Shown here piece after piece: positions 4,063 through 24,471 of a stretch of DNA of 27,970 nt. This DNA comes from a virus. The notes beneath the pieces were generated by a model, which made no database searches, was not told the origin of the DNA, and saw only the letters and a program-made list of their open reading frames with translations. The translations under genes and the position numbers were made by a program. How positions within the stretch are numbered: position 1 is the first letter of the stretch; every line of letters starts with the position of its first letter. The DNA is taken from the IMG/VR virus record IMGVR_UViG_3300017779_000111, positions 1 through 27,970 of that record. One strand, written 5' to 3'.

Positions 4063-4860
4063 ATGAATCCAGTAAAACAAATCAATAACATTTACGCATA
4101 TGTCAGAGTGTCAACTGTTGAGCAAGCCAAGAATGGTATCTCACTAGAAACGCAAAAGATGCTGATAAATGAGTTTGTTAAAAACAAATTTAATCGTGAG
4201 GTTGACCATTTCTTTGAAGATGCTGGTATATCTGGCACAGTTCCAATAAACGAAAGACCAGCTTCCAGAGAATTGACTGACACTATGGATGAACACGATA
4301 TTTTGGTTTCAACCAGATTGTGTCGTTTATCCAGATCAATGTCTGATCTAACGAAAATGATACCTATATTTGAGCAAACTGGTGTCACTTATTATTTGTG
4401 TGAGCAGTTTGGTGATATGCCAATATCATACCCAAAACCCAAAAACAGCAAATCATTACATAATAAATTCGATATGAATGTTATGGTAAACAAGATAATG
4501 CTAATATTTTTATCAGCATTTGCAGAGATTGAACATGGCAATACCAAACAAAAATTTGCTGAAGGTAAGTTGCATTGGGCAGAAAAAGGTTATGCAGTAG
4601 GTGGAGCATCACCATTTGGATTTAAGAAACAAGAAGAAAAGTTCAAAGAAGGTAATCGTATCAAGCGGAGAATGAAACTTGTACCAGTACCAGAAGAACA
4701 AAAAGTCCTTTCATTCATTAAAAAGTTAAGAGATAGAGGATTAGGACCTACTAGAATACATAGACAGGTTACTGAATTTTTTCCAGAATTTGCAGACATA
4801 CCATATTGGAAAATTAGAAATATTATTGATCGCAAAGTCCAAGGTTTGCATATAGCCTAA
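4063..4860 (+). CDS. Serine site-specific recombinase (resolvase/invertase family)
   Basis: A 265-residue recombinase. The N-terminal resolvase domain starts with YAYVRVSTVEQ (nucleophile Ser17) and contains DAGISGT and the RLCRLSR segment (Arg85, Arg88, Arg91). A long helix (AEIEHGNTKQKFAEGK) leads to GGASPFGFK, typical of the joint with the recombinase DNA-binding domain. The C-terminal part, about 80 residues, is much shorter than in large serine integrases, so it sits between small resolvases and integrases. It could integrate the phage, resolve multimers or invert a fibre segment. The adjacent gap 3931-4062 with its palindrome is the best place for its DNA target. No integration site pair can be identified. 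Confidence 0.85.
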   Translation: MNPVKQINNIYAYVRVSTVEQAKNGISLETQKMLINEFVKNKFNREVDHFFEDAGISGTVPINERPASRELTDTMDEHDILVSTRLCRLSRSMSDLTKMIPIFEQTGVTYYLCEQFGDMPISYPKPKNSKSLHNKFDMNVMVNKIMLIFLSAFAEIEHGNTKQKFAEGKLHWAEKGYAVGGASPFGFKKQEEKFKEGNRIKRRMKLVPVPEEQKVLSFIKKLRDRGLGPTRIHRQVTEFFPEFADIPYWKIRNIIDRKVQGLHIA

Positions 4861-5040: not shown

Positions 5041-5775
5041 ATGGCTGGTTTAACAGGTTGGGGAAGAACAGGTTGGAGCTCTGGAGCATGGTCACAAGCT
5101 GGTAATATTCAACTTACAGGTATAGCTTCAACTTTTGCAGTTGGCAGCCTTAGTGTAGATGCAGAATGTAATCAAACATTAGGTACAGTTGCAATTACCA
5201 GTGCTGTTGGATCACTAACAACAAGGCATTCTAAAAATGTAGTACCAGCTTCAGTTGCGATTACCAGTGCTGTTGGAACACCAATACCAGCTTCCAATAA
5301 CAACATATCAGTTGGCACAGTAGGAGCAATAACTTCTGCTATTGGATCAGTAACAATAAAATTCCCTGTGACTGTTCGACCTTCTGGATTTGCAATAACT
5401 TCAGGGCTTGGCTCAACTACAATTTTTGAGAATGAAGTTATAAACTTACCTAGCCAAGCAATTACAAGTGCAGTGGGAGCACCAACAGCATCGATACCAA
5501 AAAGCGTTACTCTCACAGGCAGAGCAATCACATCTGCTATTGGATCAGTAACAGTACATGAAAGTATAGTAACTAGCGTACCCACACTAGCCATAACTAG
5601 CGGATTTAATGCTGGAATTGCAAAGGCTGATGCAAATGCATTAATTACAGATAGTTTTGTTGTTACAAATAGTGTAGGTAGTGTGCTAGTATGGGGAGAA
5701 ATTGACCAAGCGCAAACACCAAGTTATTCTACAATTGATGAATCACAAAACGCAACTTGGCAAGAAGTAGCATAG
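5041..5775 (+). CDS. Repeat-containing virion appendage protein
   Basis: A 244-residue protein with a Gly/Trp-rich start (GLTGWGRTGWSSGAW) and then about eight copies of a beta-rich unit of roughly 20-25 residues built around AITSAVGS. Each copy alternates a short polar stretch with a hydrophobic strand, as expected for a fibre or other elongated beta structure. Similar AxGSVTV-type repeat proteins occur next to tail-fibre genes in marine phages. A good AGGA site lies before the ATG. It is followed by two more appendage-type genes, so a tail-fibre or tail-associated role is likely; the exact place in the virion is unknown. Confidence 0.7.
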   Translation: MAGLTGWGRTGWSSGAWSQAGNIQLTGIASTFAVGSLSVDAECNQTLGTVAITSAVGSLTTRHSKNVVPASVAITSAVGTPIPASNNNISVGTVGAITSAIGSVTIKFPVTVRPSGFAITSGLGSTTIFENEVINLPSQAITSAVGAPTASIPKSVTLTGRAITSAIGSVTVHESIVTSVPTLAITSGFNAGIAKADANALITDSFVVTNSVGSVLVWGEIDQAQTPSYSTIDESQNATWQEVA

Positions 5776-5792: not shown

Positions 5793-6722
5793 ATGGCAAG
5801 TACATTCGTAAATGATCTCAGATTAAATGAGATGGCAACTGGTGATGAATCAGGAAACTGGGGTAATGTCACCAATACAAACCTAGAACTTATTGCTGAA
5901 GCATTTGGTTTTGGCACTGAAGGTATCACCACTAACGCAGACACACACACATCGACAATTGCAGATGGTGCAACAGATCCAGCAAGAAGTATGTATCTGA
6001 AATACACTGGTACATTAGATTCAACTTGTACCATAACAATAGCACCAAATACTCTCTCAAAAGTTTGGATAATTGAAAACGCTACAAGTGGATCACAAGA
6101 TATAGCTATATCTCAAGGTTCTGGAGCTAATGTAACAATACCAAATGGTGCGGTGAAAGTAATTTATTCAGATGGTGCTGGATCAGGAGCTGCTGTTGTT
6201 GATGCTTTTGCTGATTTAAATGTAGGTGACAGTCTAAAAATATCAGGCACAACTCCTACTCTTACAATAGGAGATGCTGGTGCAGAGGATACAAAGATAG
6301 TGTTTGATGGCAATGCTCAGGACTTTTATATTGCTCTTGATGATTCTGCTGATGATTTGGTAATTGGTAAAGGATCAACAGTAGGAACTACACCAGCTGT
6401 ATCAATAGATGAAAACATGAATGTTACTTTTGCTGATGGTACTTCAAATGTAGATATAGCATCACATGATGCTTCGAATGGATTAAAACTAGGGGGTACT
6501 CTAGTAACTGCGCTGGCAGCAGAACTAAATATTATGGATGGTGGAACAACAGCCAGTGATATAACATTGGCTGATGCAGATAGATTGGTGTTGAATGACG
6601 ATGGCACGATGAAACAAATAGCTTTGACTAAATTAGATGCAAGAGATTTTGAAATTGCAACATCGGCTCCAACTGGCGATCAATCAGCTAAGAAAACTGG
6701 TTTTGTTTGGTACGTTGTATAA
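5793..6722 (+). CDS. Putative tail fibre/appendage protein
   Basis: A 309-residue protein. The first 40 residues (NDLRLNEMATGDESGNWG, then VTNTNLELIAEA) match an N-terminal module common to appendage proteins of marine phages, probably the part that attaches to the virion. A beta-rich shaft follows with repeated Asp/Gly/Thr motifs such as LTIGDAGAEDTKIVF and TALAAELNIMDG, the latter common in phage fibre proteins. The C-terminus (TGFVWYVV) is short and hydrophobic. A strong AGAGGA site precedes the ATG. It is likely a host-recognition or adhesion component, encoded together with the repeat proteins on either side. Confidence 0.75.
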   Translation: MASTFVNDLRLNEMATGDESGNWGNVTNTNLELIAEAFGFGTEGITTNADTHTSTIADGATDPARSMYLKYTGTLDSTCTITIAPNTLSKVWIIENATSGSQDIAISQGSGANVTIPNGAVKVIYSDGAGSGAAVVDAFADLNVGDSLKISGTTPTLTIGDAGAEDTKIVFDGNAQDFYIALDDSADDLVIGKGSTVGTTPAVSIDENMNVTFADGTSNVDIASHDASNGLKLGGTLVTALAAELNIMDGGTTASDITLADADRLVLNDDGTMKQIALTKLDARDFEIATSAPTGDQSAKKTGFVWYVV

Positions 6723-6734
6723 CGAGAATTTAGT

Positions 6735-7427
6735 ATGTCGATAAAGATTTGGGATGGTGACTCTATTGAGACACCAAATCCAATACTAATAAAAGTGACA
6801 AATGGCAATCTTCGCTTTGTCAATTTTGCTGTAGTCAAAGAAACAGATGGTTCTCTTACAACTGTATTTAATGCAATAAGACAGACATCAAGATCAACTA
6901 GCAAAACAACAACTACTTCAGTTGCAAGTAACACCACAACAACTTTTAATACTACAAAAAACACTACAACTACATTCAATACAACTAGATCTACTGCTAC
7001 GAGCAAATCAACCACGACAACTTTTAATACTACTTTTACAAGAAGCACTACTACCAGTAGAACTACAACTTTTAATACAACTTTCTTTACAGCAGACGAA
7101 AGCACACAAGGTAATATAACAACAAGCACCACTAGAAATACTGCTGTTAGCACTGACACATCAGTCACACAAAGCACTAACACAAGCACAACTACGACTT
7201 ATAACACTACCACCACTTTCTCAACCTCAAAAAACACGACTACAACTTTCAACACTACAAGAACTACTGCAACTACAGTTGTAAATAATACAACTACAAC
7301 ATATAACACTGCGATATTTGTTAGAATTACAGCAACAGGAAATACAGGATCTACTTTCGACACTGAAGTAGGAAGCGCGAGTGCGCACAGTGCAAGGTAT
7401 TGGGATGGTAGCTCTTGGACAGGATAA
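6735..7427 (+). CDS. Thr/Asn-rich decapeptide-repeat fibre protein, copy 1
   Basis: A 230-residue protein with conserved ends and a low-complexity middle. The N-terminal 50 residues (IKIWDGDSIETPNP, then VVKETDGSLTT) and the C-terminal ARYWDGSSW are nearly the same as in the protein at 10394-11359. Between them are units close to xSTTTTFNTT, period ten residues. Each NTT is an N-x-S/T sequon and the Thr runs could also carry O-glycans. The start has TATAACGAG eight bases upstream, a leader shared with the second copy. It is probably a virion surface fibre; its neighbours (glycosyltransferase, chaperone, oxygenase) suggest that it is modified. The function is inferred. Confidence 0.7.
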   Translation: MSIKIWDGDSIETPNPILIKVTNGNLRFVNFAVVKETDGSLTTVFNAIRQTSRSTSKTTTTSVASNTTTTFNTTKNTTTTFNTTRSTATSKSTTTTFNTTFTRSTTTSRTTTFNTTFFTADESTQGNITTSTTRNTAVSTDTSVTQSTNTSTTTTYNTTTTFSTSKNTTTTFNTTRTTATTVVNNTTTTYNTAIFVRITATGNTGSTFDTEVGSASAHSARYWDGSSWTG

Positions 7428-7444
7428 AATAAAATGGAAAAAAA

Positions 7445-7600
7445 ATGGGAAAAATTAAAAAAGATAGTGACATCCACGAAGAAATCAAAATTATCAATCG
7501 CAGAATGGAAGAAACTCTAGCTATCCTTGTAGAGCACTTCAAAGAAACTGAAGAAAGATTAGATAAGTTAGAAAAAAAGATAGACTCAAATGCCAATTGA
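7445..7600 (+). CDS. Small coiled-coil protein (51 aa)
   Basis: ATG at 7445; the product begins MGKIKKDSDIHEE. It is highly charged, with heptad spacing of Ile, Leu and Met that predicts one coiled coil over most of its length. It overlaps the start of the next gene by 11 bases, which suggests coupled translation. An alternative 28-codon frame from 7434 is possible but less coding-like. It may be an oligomerisation or chaperone-type subunit for the fibre or the enzymes next to it; that is a guess. Confidence 0.5.
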   Translation: MGKIKKDSDIHEEIKIINRRMEETLAILVEHFKETEERLDKLEKKIDSNAN

Positions 7601-8486
7601 GACACTGGCTTTTAACGATGTTTTGAATAATGACATTGCGCATTTCTTTAAATCTGGAAACATACGAAGATCAGATGAAAACAATCAATTAAACAAAATA
7701 CATCACTTACTACCAAAAAAAGGCAATCATGGTACTAACCTTGAATATGATATTTGGTATGATTTTAACAATGAACCTAAAATAAGAGGCTATGTCTATA
7801 CAGATTTGATGACGAAGTTCGTTTATTTGAAGCCAGCTTCTTCATTGTATTGTGTAAAATTACTCAGAGAATGTATAAAAGAAAAAATTACTGAGGAAGG
7901 AGAAAAAATATTTGAAGATATATCTCAAAATAATAAAGATAAATACAAACTTAGAGATACAAGCGAGAAACATCCTTATGTTATTTTTCTACCCGGTACG
8001 AATATCCTTAATGAAATAACAGATGATGTAAAGATCGAAAAAGCCATAAAATCTGATGGAGCAAAACTCAAACCACATCCCTTGACTTCACCTTTCATTA
8101 TGTCTTTTCTCAGAGCCAGATATGGAAAAAATTCTCTGATAAATAAAAATGCATCTGGTCATGAATTGTTAAATAAAACAGAAGTAGTTGGATTCTGTAG
8201 TAATTCAGAAATGGGTTTAATTGGTATGGCTCAAGGTAAAAGAATTAAGTTATTTGACAAACATAAAATCATAGCCAAAACATACACACACATATATGAA
8301 GTTTTGTTTCAAGATGGTTATCCAGTTATAAACGATTTAAAAAGATTACTGTCAGCAGATTACTCTGGCTTAATTTACCATTCTACAAAAAACCCAAAAA
8401 AAAGAATTAATAATTTTTTTAAATATTTTAAGAAGATAAAACATGTCAAACCCATTTCACCTAAAAATCTTAATACTGGAAAGTAA
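7590..8486 (+). CDS. Putative GT-B glycosyltransferase (capsule-synthesis-like)
   Basis: A 298-residue protein whose C-terminal half resembles the nucleotide-sugar domain of capsule-type transferases (KpsC/KpsS and related GT-B folds). It has HPYVIFLPGTN around residue 128, KLKPHP at 159-164, and a segment SNSEMGLIGMAQGK at 204-217 that corresponds to the usual 'S-x-E-x-x-x-x-G-K' loop before a strand (IKLF). No signal peptide or membrane segment is seen, so it should act in the cytoplasm. The first 120 residues are unlike any family I know and may bind the acceptor. Its place beside Thr/Asn-rich repeat proteins suggests that the fibre is its acceptor. A host-surface target is the main alternative. 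Its stop overlaps the next gene by 44 bases. Confidence 0.55.
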   Translation: MPIETLAFNDVLNNDIAHFFKSGNIRRSDENNQLNKIHHLLPKKGNHGTNLEYDIWYDFNNEPKIRGYVYTDLMTKFVYLKPASSLYCVKLLRECIKEKITEEGEKIFEDISQNNKDKYKLRDTSEKHPYVIFLPGTNILNEITDDVKIEKAIKSDGAKLKPHPLTSPFIMSFLRARYGKNSLINKNASGHELLNKTEVVGFCSNSEMGLIGMAQGKRIKLFDKHKIIAKTYTHIYEVLFQDGYPVINDLKRLLSADYSGLIYHSTKNPKKRINNFFKYFKKIKHVKPISPKNLNTGK

Positions 8487-9177
8487 CAATCTTACAAAAC
8501 TGACAACAAACTCTATCAAGAAAAACATCCCAGAAGCAGAGTACAAAGTTGTAAGAAAAGATAAAATCAAGGATAGTGTCATTGGCACTGCATTGACACA
8601 TGCTGATGGGATTACTTTGGTGGTGCAAAGTGGTATCGTTTTACAAATAAAAGATGGAGATCTACCTGATTTAAAAAAACTAAAAAATTATCACATTTGT
8701 GTCAGTAGAGAAGGTGTTTTTACAGATCATAAAAGGTTAAACGAACATTATAGATATATAGCTAAACATATTACAGATGGTGTTATTGATTTAAGTATAT
8801 TTATAATTAATCCAGATATGTGGGATGAAATACCAGAAAAAGATCAAGGTGTCTTACATGATAAGAAAAAAATGTTTATACCAAGATACATGAATCACAA
8901 GAATGATATTTTATTCCAAGAAGATTCGACAGCAGCTATAGATGCTTTTTATTATGGTGTTCTTGGAGAACAAGCAAGCGTTTTTAATTACAACAAATGT
9001 ATACAAAAAAAAGATATAAACATGTTAGAAATTTATGGCTATTGTTTTGATAAATTATTGCCATATTTAAGAGGTGTGCCAAGAAAAGAACAAAACAGAA
9101 TAAAATTTTTGGCTGATAAGACAACAACAAAAATAAAAAATATGAGAAGAAAAATACATGAAGTAAATAACAACTAA
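8443..9177 (+). CDS. Possible GT-A-like transferase (uncertain)
   Basis: A 244-residue protein. The start (LKILILESNNLTKLTTNSIKK), a helix, and a strand-like ADGITLVVQSGIVL at residues 53-66 recall the layout of GT2-type GT-A transferases, but the usual DxD is not present (VQSG lies at that place). The rest contains a hydrophobic block (SIFIINPDMW) and a basic C-terminal helix. It overlaps the GT-B-like gene by 44 bases, so the two are coupled. It may be a second transferase or a catalytically dead partner. Confidence in this assignment is low; the protein could belong to a phage-specific family. Confidence 0.4.
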   Translation: MSNPFHLKILILESNNLTKLTTNSIKKNIPEAEYKVVRKDKIKDSVIGTALTHADGITLVVQSGIVLQIKDGDLPDLKKLKNYHICVSREGVFTDHKRLNEHYRYIAKHITDGVIDLSIFIINPDMWDEIPEKDQGVLHDKKKMFIPRYMNHKNDILFQEDSTAAIDAFYYGVLGEQASVFNYNKCIQKKDINMLEIYGYCFDKLLPYLRGVPRKEQNRIKFLADKTTTKIKNMRRKIHEVNNN

Positions 9178-9187
9178 TGGAGAAAAC

Positions 9188-9622
9188 ATGTCAAAACAAA
9201 TAAATATAAAAAAAATATTCTTAGCAAACAGTGAAATAAATGTACTGGATCCAGTGAATTCAATGCAATTAGATGACTACACTGTAGACACAGAAATGAA
9301 TTGTAAATCTGAATATACAGAAATGACCTACAATGGAGTAGAAATTCACATGGTTGCTTTGCAATTTCAAATATTTTGCAATGTAAAAAATGATCCTATG
9401 TATAACATGAACTTTTCTCAAAATGGATTTTTTTCTTTAAAAGGTTACGAACATGAGGAAGTAGAAGAAGCATTAGCTATCGAATGCCCACAAATACTCA
9501 TGCCTTATGCAAGACTACATGCAGAATATCTTACTAAAAACACTGGATTAGCACCTACTCTTATACAAGATATTGACTTCAAAGAAGCCTATTACAAAGA
9601 AATAGGTAAAGAATACAAATGA
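9188..9622 (+). CDS. secB: SecB-like protein-export chaperone
   Basis: A 144-residue protein, close to the 155 residues of E. coli SecB. The C-terminal half shows the SecB signature in order: GFFSLKG (80-86), CPQILMPYAR (100-109; in E. coli CPNILFPYAR) and GLAPTLIQDIDF (120-131; in E. coli GTFPQLNLAPVNF). The N-terminus (INIKKIFLANSEIN) corresponds to the first strand. SecB tetramers hold proteins unfolded and deliver them to SecA. The acidic or zinc-binding C-terminal tail that contacts SecA is short or missing. Being encoded between fibre-modifying enzymes and a repeat protein, it may keep the fibre soluble or route proteins to export. It ends with an ATGA overlap into the oxygenase gene. 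Confidence 0.8.
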   Translation: MSKQINIKKIFLANSEINVLDPVNSMQLDDYTVDTEMNCKSEYTEMTYNGVEIHMVALQFQIFCNVKNDPMYNMNFSQNGFFSLKGYEHEEVEEALAIECPQILMPYARLHAEYLTKNTGLAPTLIQDIDFKEAYYKEIGKEYK

Positions 9623-10335
9623 GTTTTACCTATGAGGATCTTATTGATCCACTACCTTTAAAAGATTTTTATGATATCTATCATAGAAAAAGATGGTGCA
9701 TAATAAAAGGTAATGACTTTAGAAAAGATTTATTTTCAGCAACATTAAGTTGGAAACAGTTTTCTGATTACATAAATAACGACAGAGCTGTATCTGGCAT
9801 ACAAGCGATATTACCTAATGGCAAGAAACTATGTTTAGAAAAGAATAATTTATATAAAGAGAAAATACCTTCATGGTCAAGAAAAGATTATTTTGAAAAA
9901 AAATACTTACATAATATCTGGTCGAATCATGGTTCTATCATACTACCGAAAGCATCTCTTTTGACTAAAGAAATATCTAGCATTGCATATGCAATAGAAA
10001 CAGAATTTAAAGGTGCTTGCGATGCACATTTTTATTGTAGCAAAACTGCCAAAAGCAGATCATTTGATCCGCACATAGATCATGATGATAATTTCTTAGT
10101 TCATGCACATGGTGCAGTAAAGTGGACTGTCTGCAATACTCTTGATAATAAGAGAAACGATGCAACCACTTTCAATCTTACAACTGGAGATTTACTTTAC
10201 ATACCAAAAGGTCTTGCACATTCAGCAGTGCCATTGAGTAAAAGAATTTCTATATCAGTGCCTTTATTAGAGGTAAACGACATGAAAACGAATACAGTCA
10301 CTCCACTGGATCGCAAATATTATGATTTTTCTTGA
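9619..10335 (+). CDS. JmjC/cupin-4-type Fe(II)/2-oxoglutarate oxygenase
   Basis: A 238-residue protein with the core of ribosomal-oxygenase-type JmjC enzymes (cupin_4, such as YcfD/RoxA): DPHIDHDDNFLVHAHG around residues 150-165 gives the HxD iron ligands (H152, D154), followed by GAVKW. The distal ligand is H201 in GDLLYIPKGLAH. Members hydroxylate protein side chains such as Arg, His, Asp or Asn. The usual dimerisation and winged-helix C-terminal domains are missing; only about 35 residues follow the core. The neighbourhood suggests hydroxylation of the repeat fibre or a small molecule, which is inference. It starts with a 4-base overlap with the SecB-like gene. Confidence 0.75.
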   Translation: MSFTYEDLIDPLPLKDFYDIYHRKRWCIIKGNDFRKDLFSATLSWKQFSDYINNDRAVSGIQAILPNGKKLCLEKNNLYKEKIPSWSRKDYFEKKYLHNIWSNHGSIILPKASLLTKEISSIAYAIETEFKGACDAHFYCSKTAKSRSFDPHIDHDDNFLVHAHGAVKWTVCNTLDNKRNDATTFNLTTGDLLYIPKGLAHSAVPLSKRISISVPLLEVNDMKTNTVTPLDRKYYDFS

Positions 10336-10393
10336 AAACAAGTTAAACTAAAACGATGGTTTTGTTTGTGATTTAGTATAACGAGGTTTTAGA

Positions 10394-11359
10394 ATGGCGA
10401 TAAAAATTTGGGATGGTGATTCAATTGAAACACCAAATCCAATAGTCGTAAAAGTTACTGATGGAACTCTGCGTTTCGTTAATTACGCTGTCGTAAAAGA
10501 AACAGATGGTTCTCTTACTACTTTTTTTAACGCTATAAAACAAACTTCTAAAAATACTACAACCACTGTCAGTACAACTAATTCAACTACAACTACTTTC
10601 AACACAACTGCTTCTACAACAAGAGATACCTCTACAAGTAAGTCAACGACAACTACTTTTAACACAACTTTATCAACTACAACTACTTTCAACACAACTG
10701 CTTCTACAACTACGTCTTACAACACAACTAGGTCAACTACAACTTCGTACAATACGACAAGAAGCACCACTACAACTTTTGGAACAAGTCACAGTACGAC
10801 CACTACTTTTGGAACTTCTAATAGTACAACTCGTAGTACAAGTGGAACTATAAGTACAAGTTATACAACTACTTACAGTACAAACCTACCGGGTAAAGGA
10901 AACTCTAGAAATACTTCGCACACCACATCACGAAATACATCAGCGAGTTTCAATACGAGCTATACCACTTCGTTCAACACCAGTAGATCTACAACAACTT
11001 CTTACAACACAAGTAGGTCTACTACGACTACTTTTGGAACAAGTCACAGTACGACCACTACTTTTGGAACAAGTCACAGTACGACCACTACATTTAGTAC
11101 AAGTAAAAACACTACTACTACTTTTTCTACTACTAACAGCACCACAACTACATTTAATACAACAACTACATACGATACGACTGCTTCAACCTCAAAAAGT
11201 ACGACCACTACATTCAATACATCTACTACTACAGCTACAGTTATATTCGAAAGACTAACAGCTACAGGAAACACAGGTTCGATATTTGAAACAGAAGTAG
11301 CTTCAGCTAACGCACATAACGCTAGATATTGGGATGGAGACTCATGGGAAGAAGCATAA
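10394..11359 (+). CDS. Thr/Asn-rich decapeptide-repeat fibre protein, copy 2
   Basis: A 321-residue paralog of the protein at 6735-7427 with the same N-terminal module (IKIWDGDSIETPNPI, VVKETDGSLTT) and C-terminus (ARYWDGDSW). The centre contains about 20 units near xSTTTTFNTT or xSTTTTFGTSH, with an aromatic residue every ten positions. At residues 165-180 there is a Gly/Lys break (NLPGKGNSRN). Three identical 30-base units lie at 10776-10805, 11031-11060 and 11061-11090. TATAACGAG stands eight bases upstream of the ATG, exactly as in copy 1. Probably an elongated virion surface protein, longer than copy 1 by repeat expansion. Confidence 0.7.
   Translation: MAIKIWDGDSIETPNPIVVKVTDGTLRFVNYAVVKETDGSLTTFFNAIKQTSKNTTTTVSTTNSTTTTFNTTASTTRDTSTSKSTTTTFNTTLSTTTTFNTTASTTTSYNTTRSTTTSYNTTRSTTTTFGTSHSTTTTFGTSNSTTRSTSGTISTSYTTTYSTNLPGKGNSRNTSHTTSRNTSASFNTSYTTSFNTSRSTTTSYNTSRSTTTTFGTSHSTTTTFGTSHSTTTTFSTSKNTTTTFSTTNSTTTTFNTTTTYDTTASTSKSTTTTFNTSTTTATVIFERLTATGNTGSIFETEVASANAHNARYWDGDSWEEA
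10776..11090 (+). repeat. Identical 30-base repeats in the second Thr-rich gene
   Basis: The same 30 bases occur at 10776-10805 and, in direct tandem, at 11031-11060 and 11061-11090. Each copy encodes one decapeptide of the TTTTFGTSHS type. Identity at silent positions shows recent duplication or gene conversion, not selection on the protein alone. Confidence 0.8.
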
Positions 11360-11360
11360 A

Positions 11361-11918
11361 ATGACAATGACTGTAACAAAAATTAGCTATAGTGATATAG
11401 ATCAAACAATCCTTGAAGAATGTTTTACTAAATCATTACCTTACTTAGATGCAACAAAACCAAATATAGTATGGGAAGAATTTGATCTAACTGTCAGTTC
11501 TAGCACAGCAGATAAACTTGCTGTTATAAAAAATCAATTTCAAGCCAGAGAAGGCAACGATGACTATGCTATCTTCAAATTAGACATAGATGGAAGAATA
11601 GTAAATTATGGTTGTGGCAGACGAGAACAATCAGGCGATAGAATGTTTAGTCATGAACTAGACTTTTTTAGAGAAGATGCTAGTGGCAGTCAAGGTTGGT
11701 GCTATTCTACAGAGTATCATCAAAAAATAGATGCTTTTTATAAAAGTGTTTCTGATAATTGTGTCACTTCTAGTGTATGGGTTGTACAAGGCTCTAGTAT
11801 GGAAAAATCATATGGTGATGCTGTTAATGGTGGATGGCTTGATTATGCTAATCCTGAAACTTTAGAAAATTATCATGGTCATAGATATAAAAAGCTAGTA
11901 GTAACTTTTAAAGTATGA
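11361..11918 (+). CDS. Hypothetical protein (185 aa)
   Basis: The ATG at 11361 follows the stop of the Thr-rich gene by one base and is preferred to the in-frame ATG at 11334 inside that gene. The product is soluble and acidic, with no signal peptide. A strand pair around residues 70-85 (AIFKLDIDGRIVNYG) and a C-terminal stretch with HGHRYKKLVV are faintly reminiscent of GNAT acetyltransferases, but the acetyl-CoA loop is not recognisable. Its place in the fibre cassette suggests a role in the same process. Function unknown. Confidence 0.6.
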   Translation: MTMTVTKISYSDIDQTILEECFTKSLPYLDATKPNIVWEEFDLTVSSSTADKLAVIKNQFQAREGNDDYAIFKLDIDGRIVNYGCGRREQSGDRMFSHELDFFREDASGSQGWCYSTEYHQKIDAFYKSVSDNCVTSSVWVVQGSSMEKSYGDAVNGGWLDYANPETLENYHGHRYKKLVVTFKV

Positions 11919-12430
11919 TCGAAGATATTATTAAATGGATTGAAGATTTTGTGGAAAAACCAAATAAAAATTTTTCTAATTTTCCACCATGTCCATTTTC
12001 AAAAAGAACTAGAAAATTAAATAGAGTAAAATTTATTGAATATAATAACGATGAAAATAGTTTAAAAGATCACATTGATCAAATGGATACAGATAAACAT
12101 GATATGACTATTATTATTTGTGATAAAAATACTTGGACAGCAAAAGAAGCATATAAGTTAGGAAGAAAATTAGATAAGTATGCTATGAAACAAGGTTTAG
12201 CTTTTCACGAAGATCATCCTAAAATGATAGAAAAAGTAGGTGACACAATTTTAAATAATTCTAAATATATTCTTTTATATATACAAAGTTATCAACAAAT
12301 TAAAGAATCGCAAAAACAATTAAGAAAAACTAAGTATTACGATATTTGGAAAAACAATAACATTTTTGGCATAGATAAGGTGAATGATATAGATTGCCGA
12401 CAAGATGCCTACAATGATAAGTACGGATGA
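11915..12430 (+). CDS. Hypothetical protein with CPFSK motif (171 aa)
   Basis: A 171-residue protein starting at an ATGA overlap. WIEDFVEKPNKNF is followed by PPCPFSKRTR near residue 25. A pattern of Trp-Ile-Glu, then CPFxK, and later HPKMIEKVG and LLYIQSYQQI resembles a bacterial family of unknown function (the shape recalls DUF1415 proteins), but I cannot confirm it. The single Cys in CPF could be redox-active or bind a ligand. It overlaps the next gene by four bases, giving a coupled run with the CoA-binding protein. Confidence 0.55.
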   Translation: MIEDIIKWIEDFVEKPNKNFSNFPPCPFSKRTRKLNRVKFIEYNNDENSLKDHIDQMDTDKHDMTIIICDKNTWTAKEAYKLGRKLDKYAMKQGLAFHEDHPKMIEKVGDTILNNSKYILLYIQSYQQIKESQKQLRKTKYYDIWKNNNIFGIDKVNDIDCRQDAYNDKYG

Positions 12431-14842: not shown

Positions 14843-15096
14843 TGGATATTGCAAAGATAGTGGCAGAGTTTGGGTTTCCAATTACGATGGTCCTTGGTCT
14901 TGGGTATTTCGTATTTTTTGTATGGCAAACTATTACAAATAAAATTGATCCAGCGGTACAAGAAATGAAGGTAACTATCATTAGATTGACAGATCAGCTC
15001 AGATTGCTGGACCAAGACATGATCCGCTTACAGCAGAAAACGAATACTGTGCTAGAATTAAAAGAAGAAAATAAGTTGAAGGATGATGAAAAGTAG
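14842..15096 (+). CDS. Small membrane protein B of a tandem pair
   Basis: An 84-residue protein that starts in a TAATG overlap. Membrane segment at about residues 11-29 (FPITMVLGLGYFVFFVW), then a coiled-coil tail (VQEMKVTIIRLTDQLRLLDQ). It shares its plan and several positions (EFGFPxxx, YFxFxV, DMIR) with the preceding protein. Holin-like or anti-holin-like function is possible. Its end overlaps the start of the CsgF gene by 14 bases, which links the membrane cluster to the curli genes. Confidence 0.6.
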   Translation: MDIAKIVAEFGFPITMVLGLGYFVFFVWQTITNKIDPAVQEMKVTIIRLTDQLRLLDQDMIRLQQKTNTVLELKEENKLKDDEK

Positions 15097-15559
15097 TTTT
15101 TCGTGGTTTTTAGTAATATATGTATATATAGCATTGTTTTCAGTGTTATTGACTTCTTATGGCTATGCAGACGAAATAATGTTCAAGTTCAAAAGTCCAG
15201 CATTTTCTGGTATCAACACCTCAAGTCATTATCTTACAGTAGATTCGCAAGAAGCTAGTCGAAAACAAGCTGTCAAGGATGAAATTAAAGCCTATCAAGA
15301 TGAATTAGCCAGAGATGCACAAAATACCACTCTTGCTAGGTTCATCAGGAACCTAGAATCGAGAGTCTATGCACAGCTATCAAGACAAATGGTTGAGCAG
15401 CTCTTTGGCGAGACACCTCAGAAATCTGGTAAATTAGAGCTTGAGGGAAACATAATAGAATATACTGTGGAGAATGATGAATTTATTACGCTCACTATTA
15501 CAGATGAACTGGGTGGACAGACGTCTATTACTGTTCCTATTGGTAGTTTTACTTTCTAG
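15083..15559 (+). CDS. csgF: CsgF-like curli assembly factor
   Basis: A 158-residue secreted protein. The signal peptide spans residues 1-29 (hydrophobic core LVIYVYIALFSVLL, cleavage near YGYA). The mature start EIMFKFKSPAFSGIN corresponds to the CsgF segment with NPAFGG that inserts into the CsgG pore. Later it has QLSRQMVEQLFGE and ends TDELGGQTSITVPIGSF, like the C-terminus of CsgF. In curli systems CsgF forms the outer constriction of the CsgG channel and couples secretion to nucleation. It overlaps csgG by 86 bases (56 if the later start is used). csgE is not seen. Two ATGs lie at 15083 and 15086. Confidence 0.85.
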   Translation: MMKSSFSWFLVIYVYIALFSVLLTSYGYADEIMFKFKSPAFSGINTSSHYLTVDSQEASRKQAVKDEIKAYQDELARDAQNTTLARFIRNLESRVYAQLSRQMVEQLFGETPQKSGKLELEGNIIEYTVENDEFITLTITDELGGQTSITVPIGSFTF

Positions 15560-16325
15560 CTGTGCTTCCCACAACATGTTGGAAGGTAGCGGTATTCCTA
15601 GTATCGTTATTAAAAGTTCTTCTATATTAGATCTACAATCAGAAGAATTAAAAAATGTTGGTGTACCTACAAGAAAACCAGTTGTAGCCATATATCCGAA
15701 TTCTTTTGCAGATCACACAGGTCAGCGCAAAAGTAATGGACAGTTTGCATTATTTTCAACTGCTATTACCCAAGCACCAGAAGCGTTTCTTATTAGAGCA
15801 TTAAAACACAGTGGCAATGGTAAATTCTGGCGAGTTGTTGAAAGAGTAGGCTTAGATTCGCTTACTAAAGAAAGGCAGATAATTAGATCTACTAGGGTAG
15901 ATTTTGAAGATCAAAGCGAAGTTAAACCTTTACTGTTCGCTGGACTTTTGCTTCAAGGGGGTGTATTGAGTTATGATCAAAATGTACTTAGTGGTGGCAG
16001 CGGAGCAAGATACCTCGGTATTGGTAGCTCTAAACAGTACAGAGAAGATTTAATGACAGTTAGTTTAAGGCTTGTTTCAGTCAGTACAGGAGAGATATTA
16101 ATAGAAACTTCTGCGCAAAAAAGCCTACTTAGTGTTGGATTATCACAAGATATTTTTCGATTTCTAGATGAAGGACAAAGGTTGGTAGAGGTGGAAGGTG
16201 GTAGAGCGCAAAATGAATCAACTAGCATTGTATTACAATCAGTAGTTGAAAGAGCTGTACTAGAAATAATAAAGATAGGCGAGACAAAAGGGTACTGGGA
16301 GATTAGAGATGAAGAAGTTAATTAG
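15474..16325 (+). CDS. csgG: CsgG-like outer-membrane curli secretion channel lipoprotein
   Basis: A 283-residue lipoprotein. The signal ends in the lipobox LLSSC (Cys30 from this start). Characteristic CsgG motifs follow: FADHTGQ near 78-84, ERQIIRS (133-139), a membrane hairpin region with GGSGARYLGIG (174-184), VSVSTGEIL (201-209), and FRFLDEGQRLVE-like ending. The length is close to that of E. coli CsgG (277). CsgG forms a nonameric pore in the outer membrane through which curlin subunits pass. GGAG before the ATG at 15477 supports a start there or at 15474; 15504 also gives a good lipoprotein signal. It overlaps csgF and, by 17 bases, the curlin gene. Confidence 0.9.
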   Translation: MMNLLRSLLQMNWVDRRLLLFLLVVLLSSCASHNMLEGSGIPSIVIKSSSILDLQSEELKNVGVPTRKPVVAIYPNSFADHTGQRKSNGQFALFSTAITQAPEAFLIRALKHSGNGKFWRVVERVGLDSLTKERQIIRSTRVDFEDQSEVKPLLFAGLLLQGGVLSYDQNVLSGGSGARYLGIGSSKQYREDLMTVSLRLVSVSTGEILIETSAQKSLLSVGLSQDIFRFLDEGQRLVEVEGGRAQNESTSIVLQSVVERAVLEIIKIGETKGYWEIRDEEVN

Positions 16326-17013
16326 TTTATTATTAGTTTGCTGTATTGCAATAGCAGATGATAACGAAATTTATGTGGATCAAGCTGGAACATCCTCATC
16401 AATTGATTTGGAGCAATTAGGTTCTGGAAACATTATAGGTGGATTATTATCTGCACATGGATCTATGACACCATTTGATCTCGATGGCAATTCGATGACA
16501 TTAGATGTAAATTTAATTGGTAACAATAACAAGATGTTAGGCGACATAAACTCAGATACATTCACAGGTCTGTTTGACTTCGATGGTGATACCAACTCAT
16601 ATACCATTCAAGTAGATCCTACAAACACCTATTCAGCCGATAACGCAAACGTGAATGTGAACGTGGATGGATCAACAAATGCCATGACATTAGATTTAGC
16701 TACTTCTTCCTTGGCTTCTGGTGCAGATGTAGACACAATAGTTCAAGGAAATAGTAATACAGTGAATATTGACTTAGATGTAGATTCAGCAGTAAATTAT
16801 ATGGATATAGACGGAGACAGTAATACAGTAAACTACGATGGGAACGGCTATGCTGGAGCATATTTCAAACTCGAACATGATGGCTCATCGAGAGCCTTTG
16901 AAGTTGATCAACAATCTACTTTGGATAATGATTGGCTGCGTGTTATTTCAAACGGAAGCAACGGCACAGTTTGCATCAACCAGTCGGACCAAGGAACCTC
17001 AACCTCTTGCTAA
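16309..17013 (+). CDS. Curlin-like secreted repeat protein (CsgA/CsgB-type)
   Basis: A 234-residue protein with a signal peptide (MKKLISLLLVCCIAIA). The mature part starts EIYVDQAGTSSSIDLEQLGSGN, a curlin repeat pattern (I-x-V-x-Q-x-G, then I-x-L-x-Q-x-G-x-N). It continues with Asn/Asp/Gly-rich strands (MTLDVNLIGNNNKM, VQGNSNTVNIDLD, IDGDSNTVNYDG). The C-terminus (NGTVCINQSDQGTSTSC) has two cysteines. This fits an extracellular fibre-forming substrate of the CsgG/CsgF channel encoded just upstream. The repeats are more Asp-rich and less regular than in E. coli CsgA. Its last 137 bases also encode the signal peptide of the FecR-domain protein in another frame. Confidence 0.7.
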   Translation: MKKLISLLLVCCIAIADDNEIYVDQAGTSSSIDLEQLGSGNIIGGLLSAHGSMTPFDLDGNSMTLDVNLIGNNNKMLGDINSDTFTGLFDFDGDTNSYTIQVDPTNTYSADNANVNVNVDGSTNAMTLDLATSSLASGADVDTIVQGNSNTVNIDLDVDSAVNYMDIDGDSNTVNYDGNGYAGAYFKLEHDGSSRAFEVDQQSTLDNDWLRVISNGSNGTVCINQSDQGTSTSC

Positions 17014-18043
17014 AGATATTGGCTCAATCTCTGAGCTAAATGGTGTAACCAGAGTTGTTCGAGAGAAACCTTTAAAAAGTGAGGTAGGCTTCTCACTAGA
17101 TTCTATGGATAAGCTGGAAACAGCTGCTGGTCGCATGGGTGTTACTTTTCGTGATGAAACAACTATTAGGTTGACCGAGAATAGCACTGTGATTGTTGAC
17201 TCCTTTATATTTGATCCAAATCCATCTAACTCCAGTATGGCTTTAAACTTTGTAAAAGGAACCGGTAGGTTTATCAGTTCAAAGTCAAAAAGAATAAAAA
17301 AAGAAAACATTAAGATACGAGCTGGCAATAGTGCAGTTGTAGGGATTAGGGGCACGGATCTCACGCTAACAGTAAAAGATACTGGGGAGGTTCTCGTTAT
17401 TCTGCTGCCTAATGAATTTGGAGAAAGTTCAGGTGAGATAGTCGTTACAACTGCTTTGGGAAGTGTGGTTTTGAATAAACCATATCAGGCTACAACTGTG
17501 TATAACTTGGAATCAGTGCCATCAAATCCAGTAATACTAGATCTTACTTTAGATCAAATAGATAACTATTTAATTGTTTCTCCACCAGAAGAAAAACGAC
17601 TAGAGACAAATGAATCAAGCGCAACTGCATCATCATCTATATTGGACACAGATTTTCTCGAATTTGACGATTTAGATGCTGATGTGCTAGATGCAGAATC
17701 AGAGCTAGAATACACAGAGCTTGATATAGATTACCTCGCAACTAATTTTTTGGAAGATTTGCTTGATGTGATACAAGAGGTAGATGAATTGAGCAAAGCA
17801 TCAGGAGCATTGGCAAAACAAGGCTTGGAAGGTACAAGTATTGGTTATGATTCTGACACACAAATATCCAGTTTTGTGACTGATTCAGAAGTAAAATTAA
17901 TACGCGAAGTAGAAGGTAAATTACAAATACAGGTTTCTAAAGACAGCAGTACAGCAATTAGCATAGATCAAGAAGGAAAAGTAAATCAAGTCAGAGTGAA
18001 TGGTGGCACTCAATCTAATATAAATATAAAACAAGGAAGTTAA
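16877..18043 (+). CDS. Secreted FecR-domain protein with curlin-like C-terminus
   Basis: A 388-residue protein. The ATG at 16877 (or 16880) starts a signal peptide (KLINNLLWIMIGCVLF, cleavage near ATA-Q). A FecR domain covers residues 52-175: ELNGVTRVV, DKLETAAGRMGV, DETTIRLTENS and AVVGIRGTDL. A long acidic linker follows (DTDFLEFDDLDADVLDAE). The last 29 residues (SIDQEGKVNQV, then NINIKQGS) repeat the curlin Q-x-G-x-x-N pattern. No start codon in this frame exists between 17013 and the FecR domain, so it must begin inside the curlin-like gene. It is likely exported and could anchor or nucleate the curlin-like protein at the surface; that is inference. Confidence 0.75.
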   Translation: MMAHREPLKLINNLLWIMIGCVLFQTEATAQFASTSRTKEPQPLAKDIGSISELNGVTRVVREKPLKSEVGFSLDSMDKLETAAGRMGVTFRDETTIRLTENSTVIVDSFIFDPNPSNSSMALNFVKGTGRFISSKSKRIKKENIKIRAGNSAVVGIRGTDLTLTVKDTGEVLVILLPNEFGESSGEIVVTTALGSVVLNKPYQATTVYNLESVPSNPVILDLTLDQIDNYLIVSPPEEKRLETNESSATASSSILDTDFLEFDDLDADVLDAESELEYTELDIDYLATNFLEDLLDVIQEVDELSKASGALAKQGLEGTSIGYDSDTQISSFVTDSEVKLIREVEGKLQIQVSKDSSTAISIDQEGKVNQVRVNGGTQSNINIKQGS

Positions 18044-23863: not shown

Positions 23864-24049
23864 ATGGATGGGTTTGATTTAGTTAGTGACATAAGAAAAG
23901 AAATACAGATACAAGTAGACTCAATACAAAATATATTGATGACAGGTCAAGTTAAAGATATGGAGCAGTATAAATTCTTTACAGGACAACTACATCAGTT
24001 ATACAATATGCAAGACTTTATTAAATCTTATAAAAAGATAGAGGATTGA
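23864..24049 (+). CDS. Small helical head-module protein (61 aa)
   Basis: A 61-residue protein with TAGGAG upstream of the ATG. It is predicted all helical (DIRKEIQIQVDSIQNILM, GQLHQLYNMQDFIKSYKK). Genes of this length are common between portal and capsid genes in marine phages, with no known function. Its end overlaps an alternative TTG start of the co-chaperonin gene, but the ATG at 24055 is preferred for that gene. Confidence 0.65.
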   Translation: MDGFDLVSDIRKEIQIQVDSIQNILMTGQVKDMEQYKFFTGQLHQLYNMQDFIKSYKKIED

Positions 24050-24054
24050 GCAAA

Positions 24055-24471
24055 ATGGGCGAAAAAGTTGAGTTGAAATCAGCTTATGTTGATGCAGATG
24101 ATGTAGTTTTGGATCCAACAAAGGTAGAAGATAGTGTAATAGAAAGAATGCCACAGCCAACTGGATGGAGAATTTTATGTTTACCATACAGAAAAAGTCG
24201 AAAAACAAAAGGTGGTATTGTTCTTACCAGAGAAACAGTAGATAAAGAATCGTTAGCTACTTTAGTAGCTTATGTGGTTAAGAAAGGACCTTTATGCTAC
24301 AGTGACAAAAAGAAGTATGGCGAGCATTGGTGTCAAGAAAAACAATGGATCTTGATTAGTAGGTATGCTGGTGCTAGGTTTAAATTAGAAGATGGTGCTG
24401 AAGTTCGTATAATTAATGATGATGAAGTCATTGGAACTATAAAGCACCCAGACGATATAGTGAGCATATAA
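24055..24471 (+). CDS. GroES-like co-chaperonin (Cpn10 family)
   Basis: A 138-residue protein. After about 30 extra N-terminal residues comes PTGWRILCLPYRKSRKTKGGIVLTRET: a Cpn10-type first strand and a mobile loop carrying GGIVL, the segment by which GroES and T4 gp31 bind GroEL. Further Cpn10 features are VAYVVKKGPLCY and a C-terminal DEVIGTIKHPDDI. It is longer than GroES (97 residues), as T4 gp31 is. By analogy it could replace host GroES for folding the capsid protein encoded downstream. The ATG at 24055 is nine bases after AGAGGA. Confidence 0.8.
   Translation: MGEKVELKSAYVDADDVVLDPTKVEDSVIERMPQPTGWRILCLPYRKSRKTKGGIVLTRETVDKESLATLVAYVVKKGPLCYSDKKKYGEHWCQEKQWILISRYAGARFKLEDGAEVRIINDDEVIGTIKHPDDIVSI

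Follow-up and report, generated by a model that had tools for sequence, protein, structure and literature searches.

A putative fibre-decoration cassette joins Thr-rich repeat proteins to a GT-B-like glycosyltransferase in a probable pelagiphage and in other phages

The virus record IMGVR_UViG_3300017779_000111, analysed over its whole stretch of 27,970 bases (hereafter the window), encodes two threonine (Thr)-rich repeat proteins, RepA and RepB, which enclose genes for a small coiled-coil protein, a GT-B-like glycosyltransferase (P298), a possible GT-A-like protein (P244), a SecB-family protein and a JmjC-type oxygenase (Table 1). A Thr-rich gene and the P298 gene recur together in several phage groups, and we suggest that the locus may be a cassette that places sugar on a phage fibre. 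The terminase of the window is nearest to that of phage 023Pt_psg01 (61.5%), followed by that of Pelagibacter phage HTVC027P (58.2%), and the window phage is therefore probably a pelagiphage of the HTVC023P type.

Table 1. Genes and features of the fibre locus and its downstream neighbours in the window
Feature	Position	Strand	Remarks
Tail-fibre-like gene, 309 aa, ends ...GFVWYVV	5793..6722	+	phrog_31104, E 7e-17 (function unknown); putative fibre role
RepA, Thr-rich repeat protein, 230 aa, probable fibre	6735..7427	+	T = 71/144 body residues
Small coiled-coil protein, 51 aa	7445..7600	+	Coiled coil judged by eye
P298, GT-B-like glycosyltransferase of KpsC/WbbB/sialyltransferase type, 298 aa; phrog_26179	7590..8486	+	
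P244, possible GT-A-like protein, 244 aa	8443..9177	+	Low-confidence model, pLDDT 65.8
SecB, 144 aa, optional	9188..9622	+	PF02556
JmjC_2-type 2-oxoglutarate (2OG)-Fe(II) oxygenase, 238 aa, optional	9619..10335	+	PF08007; Fe triad H152/D154/H201
RepB leader, worn copy of 3′ end of fibre gene 5793-6722 plus RepA leader	10357..10393	+	
RepB, Thr-rich repeat protein, 321 aa, probable fibre	10394..11359	+	
P194, function unknown, directly after some Thr-rich genes	11361..11918	+	No Pfam/NCBIfam family
P171, function unknown, phrog_28122; after P194 in some other lineages too	11915..12430	+	
Acyl-CoA ligase (NDP-forming) alpha-like, optional, often adjoining P194	12427..13398	+	PF13607, E 5e-9
aa, amino acids; pLDDT, predicted local distance difference test; NDP, nucleoside diphosphate.

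A sequence-only reading of this stretch had described two paralogous repeat proteins, alike in ends and leader, around five co-oriented and overlapping genes. The places of all these genes were confirmed and all lie on the plus strand, but overlap is confined to three junctions (coiled coil/P298, P298/P244 and SecB/JmjC), with a 10-base gap between P244 and SecB and a 58-base gap between JmjC and RepB. RepA and RepB do share their ends (68% identity in alignment) and their leader: TGGTTTTGTTTG and GTATAACGAG are found again ahead of RepB, there as copies of the final codons of the fibre gene upstream. A worn copy of the fibre gene's 3′ end thus lies in the RepB leader, and the pair therefore looks like the product of a duplication of a unit made up of the fibre 3′ end and a Thr-rich gene.

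The body of the Thr-rich proteins appears to follow a two-residue register, with bulky residues tending to one face and Thr or Ser (together with Asn, Gly and Asp) elsewhere. Across 52 distinct bodies, 2568 of the 3335 gaps from one bulky residue to the next (77%) have an even length, compared with 43.8% (standard deviation 0.85) in 100 shuffles. Thr occupies positions −2 and +2 relative to Phe/Tyr in 19/20 and 20/20 cases in RepB, and in 11/11 and 9/11 in RepA. The N-T-T sequons that had been proposed as modified sites fare less well. The bodies of RepA and RepB contain 13 and 17 N-x-[ST] sequons, respectively; over the 52 bodies, sequon density ranges from 0.2 to 9.7 per 100 residues, and Asn directly follows Phe/Tyr in just 521 of 1567 cases. 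Because Asn is poorly conserved and sequon density variable, and because the Thr flanking Phe/Tyr is nearly fixed in RepB, Thr would be the better candidate acceptor if the body is glycosylated. Thr content is at least 25% in all 65 matches to the N-terminal domain that are at least 120 amino acids long. A gene ending in WYVV, which we take to encode a fibre, precedes 51 of the 58 Thr-rich genes that have at least 700 bases of upstream sequence, and the Thr-rich proteins themselves are probably virion fibres or stalks.

Structure searches agreed well with the guess, made from sequence, that P298 is a GT-B enzyme. Its predicted model is of good quality (pLDDT 86.5, predicted template modelling score 0.85) and indicates a GT-B fold of the kind found in transferases of cytidine monophosphate (CMP)-activated sugars. 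Foldseek returned KpsC as the best match (E 7e-5), with modest template modelling scores (TM-scores) by query length, at 0.37-0.43 among the four best hits. VIA placed KpsC, KrkA, a polysialyltransferase and WbbB at the top among PDB entries, with Z-scores of 9.7 for KpsC, 9.2 for the polysialyltransferase and 9.1 for WbbB, the value of 9.7 extending over 212-220 residues. In a viral structure library, a Vibrio phage homologue matched the P298 model with a TM-score of 0.71-0.74. Alignment with hhalign against bacterial Capsule_synth gave 91.7% over 67 columns in the nucleotide-binding half. Below Pfam cut-offs, the KVP40 homologue matched GT52 (E 5e-4) and the BL199 homologue matched Capsule_synth (E 0.0016); the gathering cut-off of Capsule_synth (PF05159, 20 bits) was reached neither by the BL199 homologue (18.4 bits) nor by that of Halomonas (14.2 bits). 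A P298 profile found no match among PDB chain sequences up to E 5, and a Glycos_transf_2 search of the window found none.

P298 shares its fold, an HP motif and an NS...G...GKP stretch with the retaining beta-Kdo (Kdo, 3-deoxy-D-manno-octulosonic acid) transferases of families GT107 (KpsC) and GT99 (WbbB) and with the GT-B sialyltransferases (GT38 and GT52). H163-P164 of the HP motif is invariant in 23 aligned rows and is present in a 40-row set as well, and D54, the Asp of a [YF]D motif, is unchanged in 40/40 rows. Where KpsS-type proteins have a conserved Asp motif, D-A-Q-I, P298 has G-[TS]-N in 40/40 rows, with the register set by motif and strand order. WbbB has a catalytic Glu, E158. The nucleophilic Asp of the retaining Kdo transferases is given as D232 of WbbB and D160 of KpsC in PMC9587256. 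P298 appears, from its aligned homologues, to lack this residue, and it was therefore not filed as GT99 or GT107. The Kdo transferases act in lipopolysaccharide (LPS) or capsule synthesis, whereas P298 would act beside a phage fibre.

The GT-A guess for P244 drew weaker agreement from the structure searches. VIA rows for its model are dominated by GT-A enzymes, with Z-scores up to 9.7 for a model whose pLDDT is only 65.8; Foldseek gave no match with E under 0.001. At the place expected for the DxD motif, read by eye, an S-G pair is invariant; no clear DxD is evident, and P244 may thus be non-catalytic.

The linkage of these genes was surveyed in IMG/VR from both sides. A P298 search gave 38 loci, and a reverse search with the Thr-rich N-terminal domain gave 67 loci on 66 contigs, with 69 Thr-rich genes; the counts below are uncorrected for phylogeny, take in near relatives and count some contigs twice, and many of the records are fragments. 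In the locus survey, a gene was called Thr-rich if the combined fraction of Thr, Asn and Ser (T+N+S) exceeded 0.38 and that of Thr (T) exceeded 0.15, or if it carried a [YI]W[DN]G motif; another scan used T+N+S >0.42 and T >0.22. A Thr-rich gene is present at 25 of the 38 P298 loci, and at three more the sequence starts fewer than 400 bases 5′ of P298. In the other direction, P298 lies within 1.5 kb of 33 of the 41 Thr-rich genes that have at least 2 kb of downstream sequence; P194 is directly downstream of nine, and one or the other accompanies 40 of the 41. P244 adjoins P298 in 66/66 complete copies (loci, contig repeats included), and the coiled-coil gene lies 5′ of 64 of the 66. Since the neighbourhood recurs in dozens of other contigs, it is unlikely to be due to chance. 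Its conserved core comprises the Thr-rich protein, the coiled coil, P298 and P244. A self-contained set of the full extent first proposed is not what the relatives carry: the constant part is just the coiled coil, P298 and P244, and among 19 records chosen (non-randomly) for a Thr-rich gene and/or P298, JmjC occurs in five and SecB in four. At four loci listed among the ten P298 loci with no Thr-rich gene in the stretch examined (L027, L028, L034 and L036), the coiled coil, P298 and P244 stand, by eye, just before terminase- and portal-like genes. In two of the three records of this kind that have a Thr-rich gene at another place on the contig (G004, and G001 across the contig ends), that gene follows a large fibre gene and is itself followed by P194 and P171.

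The regions around P298 homologues were read in nine cultured phages, and in seven of these (KVP40, QD01, 6E35.1a, F86, BL199, BL198 and Lullwater) a Thr-rich gene lies just upstream. Whole-genome counts of open reading frames (ORFs) with T ≥0.20 and T+N+S ≥0.38, made in 20-kb pieces, returned a single Thr-rich ORF among 379 in KVP40, 50 in BL199 and 48 in Lullwater, and in each genome that ORF (KVP40.0254 in KVP40, gp042 in BL199) is separated from P298 by at most one gene. The N-terminal parts of the Thr-rich proteins of cultured phages look unlike the pelagiphage type, and the repeat body would therefore be the shared element. In Vibrio phage F86, the intact Thr-rich ORF (L141:2906-3463) is missing from the annotation of the record. 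Stenotrophomonas phage DLP_6 has large unannotated frames at both ends of its record (L062:15861-18490 and L001:3-1655), 5′ of the coiled coil and P298. In bacterial genomes, 60 pattern matches for P298 yielded one relative. A stretch of Halomonas sulfidaeris (L130:8594-13026) holds a gene with a Hint-like part, the coiled coil, a P298 homologue, a GT8 gene and radical-S-adenosylmethionine-like frames; there, a clear GT8 gene (E 5e-7) comes after the coiled coil and P298. A search for the KVP40 gene behind P298 as a sequence relative of this GT8 enzyme gave no support.

The oxygenase matches JmjC_2 (PF08007) with E 2e-12 and 47 bits against a cut-off of 22, and its Fe-binding residues H152, D154 and H201 are invariant in nine rows. 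Its best PDB matches are the ribosomal oxygenases NO66, YcfD and MINA (E 3e-9, 2e-7 and 2e-6), with which it shares the H-x-D...H motif, the match being limited to the JmjC core. Twelve JmjC loci were found, six on contigs with a Thr-rich gene and six on contigs without one, the latter all on contigs of at most 13.4 kb. Relatives occur in cyanophages; the single cyanophage region read, that of S-RIM44, contains no Thr-rich gene. In other lineages, a sulfotransferase-like gene (PF03567) stands behind P244 (8 of 97 loci, on seven contigs), and by gene content JmjC is an optional accessory. A block that recurs behind P244 (L116:8420-10563 and relatives) includes, over the 97 loci, DUF7936 at 17, a cupin-like gene at nine, the sulfotransferase gene at the same eight and a gene for a 175-amino-acid protein at seven.

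The SecB homologue is, by profile match, a real SecB-family protein (PF02556, E 7e-18, 65.2 bits against a cut-off of 26, residues 3-139 on positions 6-138 of 141), with a score below the NCBIfam equivalog cut-offs. It had been thought to keep the fibre soluble, and this role is now doubtful because SecB tracks the phage curli operon: of 27 records that contain a Thr-rich gene, P298 or both, SecB is present in 8 of 10 with CsgG and in 1 of 17 without (Fisher p 1.7e-4, a test that ignores lineage, which is a confounder). SecB may instead belong with the curli operon, in Sec export of curli subunits, a proposal that we hold to be evenly poised. It gains from the two records (G010 and G021) in which SecB lies outside the cassette; it loses from record G087, a 42.9-kb fragment that has SecB and lacks CsgG, and from the window and a number of relatives, where SecB stands inside the fibre cassette. 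The cultured phages HTVC008M and Melnitz have curli and lack SecB, and curli therefore does not require a phage SecB. By tblastn, neither SecB nor P244 was found in cultured phages, and HTVC027P, HTVC023P and 023Pt_psg01 have no SecB. In the window, a curli (type VIII secretion) operon at 15083-18043 is identified by Pfam matches to CsgF, CsgG and FecR, and a repeat protein with no Pfam match lies between its genes; a section of PMC9599517 describes a curli operon for part of the HTVC023P-type pelagiphages.

We read the locus as a fibre-decoration cassette in which P298 and P244 would put sugar on the Thr-rich body, and assign this reading a probability of about 0.6. P298, as the GT-B enzyme, and P244, as a GT-A-like and perhaps non-catalytic partner, would form a dedicated pair, accompanied by the small coiled coil, and sugar would be added in the cytoplasm, ahead of fibre incorporation into the virion. 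JmjC here and the sulfotransferase in other lineages could be exchangeable accessories acting further on the fibre or on its sugar. A functional tie between the Thr-rich body and P298 is best supported by their linkage, which holds despite unlike anchor domains and unlike genomes; because of the fold of P298 and its sulfotransferase and GT8 neighbours, we infer that this tie is fibre glycosylation. The original proposal of enzymes dedicated to a Thr-rich surface fibre thus survives as an inference, the gene link having recurred across phage groups.

Several observations weigh against this interpretation. Enzymes in relatives that have no Thr-rich gene nearby had been named in advance as the finding that would tell against it, and they were found in part: 10 of the 38 P298 loci have no Thr-rich gene within the stretch examined, but of seven records of this kind three carry one elsewhere on the contig; the other four, which are fragments, have none on the contig. 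Among cultured phages, the short Tyr/Thr-rich gene upstream in Cr30 does not reach the threshold, and DLP6 has no strictly Thr-rich neighbour, its long unannotated frames having 27-34% T+N+S. The Thr-rich N-terminal domain is absent from HTVC027P, HTVC023P and 023Pt_psg01, the closest cultured kin of the window phage. The repeat of BL199 does not keep the even-gap register (22/73). The Halomonas locus has no Thr-rich gene. The window P298 and P244 have no Pfam match, the P244 model is poor, a P244 profile found nothing in six cultured phages with P298 (a search that had no positive control), and P244 did not align by profile with the Halomonas GT8 enzyme. In the Vibrio phages, the genes fall within or beside an anti-defence island as named in PMC12028318 for 6E351A, whose locus tags were matched to this region by number only.

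The main rival is that the glycosyltransferases alter host LPS, giving superinfection exclusion, and stand beside fibre genes as parts of a host-recognition cluster. We retain it as such because host O-chain modification is the alternative proposed for SAR11 phage glycosyltransferases near fibre genes in the section of PMC7029224 on the pelagimyophage host-recognition cluster, where GT8 is the commonest glycosyltransferase. The nearest folds to P298, those of LPS and capsule Kdo transferases, would suit this explanation too. It nevertheless seems unlikely to us: P298 is tied to one kind of neighbour, the Thr-rich gene, in phages with unlike anchor domains; no transmembrane stretch was found by hydropathy; and in the Caulobacter phages P298 lies between tail-fibre/Thr-rich genes and holin/terminase genes, by position in a late operon. 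Somewhat less probable still is an unmodified Thr-rich protein that serves as a structural stalk, with P298 and P244 acting on another virion protein, for example the product of 5793-6722 or 5041-5775. A two-residue register could indeed serve folding alone, and in DLP6 and Halomonas P298 adjoins other large structural or fibre-like genes, but the sole Thr-rich ORF in the three whole genomes counted is the one beside P298. A role for P298 in modifying DNA, as a glycosyltransferase belonging to an anti-restriction island, is very improbable, given that the neighbour common across groups is the Thr-rich gene and not queC and that no queC-like gene was seen beside P298 in the window, BL199, BL198 or Lullwater, even though KVP40-type phages have such a gene two genes behind P298 and PMC12028318 describes a 7-deazaguanine cluster for the 6E351A stretch.

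If fibre glycosylation is indeed its function, the locus resembles the serine-rich-repeat adhesin loci of Gram-positive bacteria (GspB and Fap1), which likewise join a hydroxyl-rich, low-complexity repeat protein to its own glycosyltransferases. The glycosyltransferases of those adhesins are GT4-type, and the loci also encode accessory Sec components (SecA2/SecY2/Asps). Here, the repeat protein adjoins glycosyltransferase genes as it does in those systems, a likeness of adjacency only; the residue is Thr rather than Ser, the genes are those of phages (with Gram-negative hosts, where cultured), and the enzyme is KpsC-like. A further parallel is that the serine-rich-repeat glycan is modified by an accessory enzyme, as described in PMC5578698. 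Virion glycosylation by phages has also been reported in mycobacteriophages, where the capsid and tail-tube subunits carry the glycans at their C-termini (Freeman et al. 2023, as cited in PMC12619734); the likely target here would be a Thr-rich fibre. A literature search of open-licence papers found no description of this gene set. A bolder and more speculative extension, which we consider rather doubtful, is that P298 defines a new family of transferases for ulosonic- or sialic-type sugars, which would draw on the host CMP-Kdo pool to place an inner-core LPS sugar on Thr-rich fibres, the loci then being a widespread phage counterpart of the serine-rich-repeat loci with exchangeable hydroxylation and sulfation modules.

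The window holds further genes of note. A serine recombinase (4063-4860; Resolvase PF00239, E 1e-21) lies just 5′ of the fibre genes and might drive cassette shuffling or lysogeny. A repeat protein with AITSAVGS-type units and no Pfam family is encoded at 5041-5775, upstream of the fibre gene, and a Cpn10/GroES-like gene (24046-24471; PF00166, E 1e-5) is found within the structural region. The sole match of P194, a designed amidase (E 0.017), was not used. The acyl-CoA ligase alpha-like protein matches TIGR02717 with E 2e-20, far below the cut-off of that model.

Should the decoration of Thr-rich fibres be borne out, a means of adding sugar to their own fibres would be common to phages that infect Vibrio, Caulobacter and highly abundant marine bacteria. 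Such a coat would be relevant to adsorption, host range and particle stability. Genes currently annotated as hypothetical in KVP40 and other cultured phages would also gain a suggested function, and the locus would provide a compact enzyme set for Thr-rich glycoproteins.

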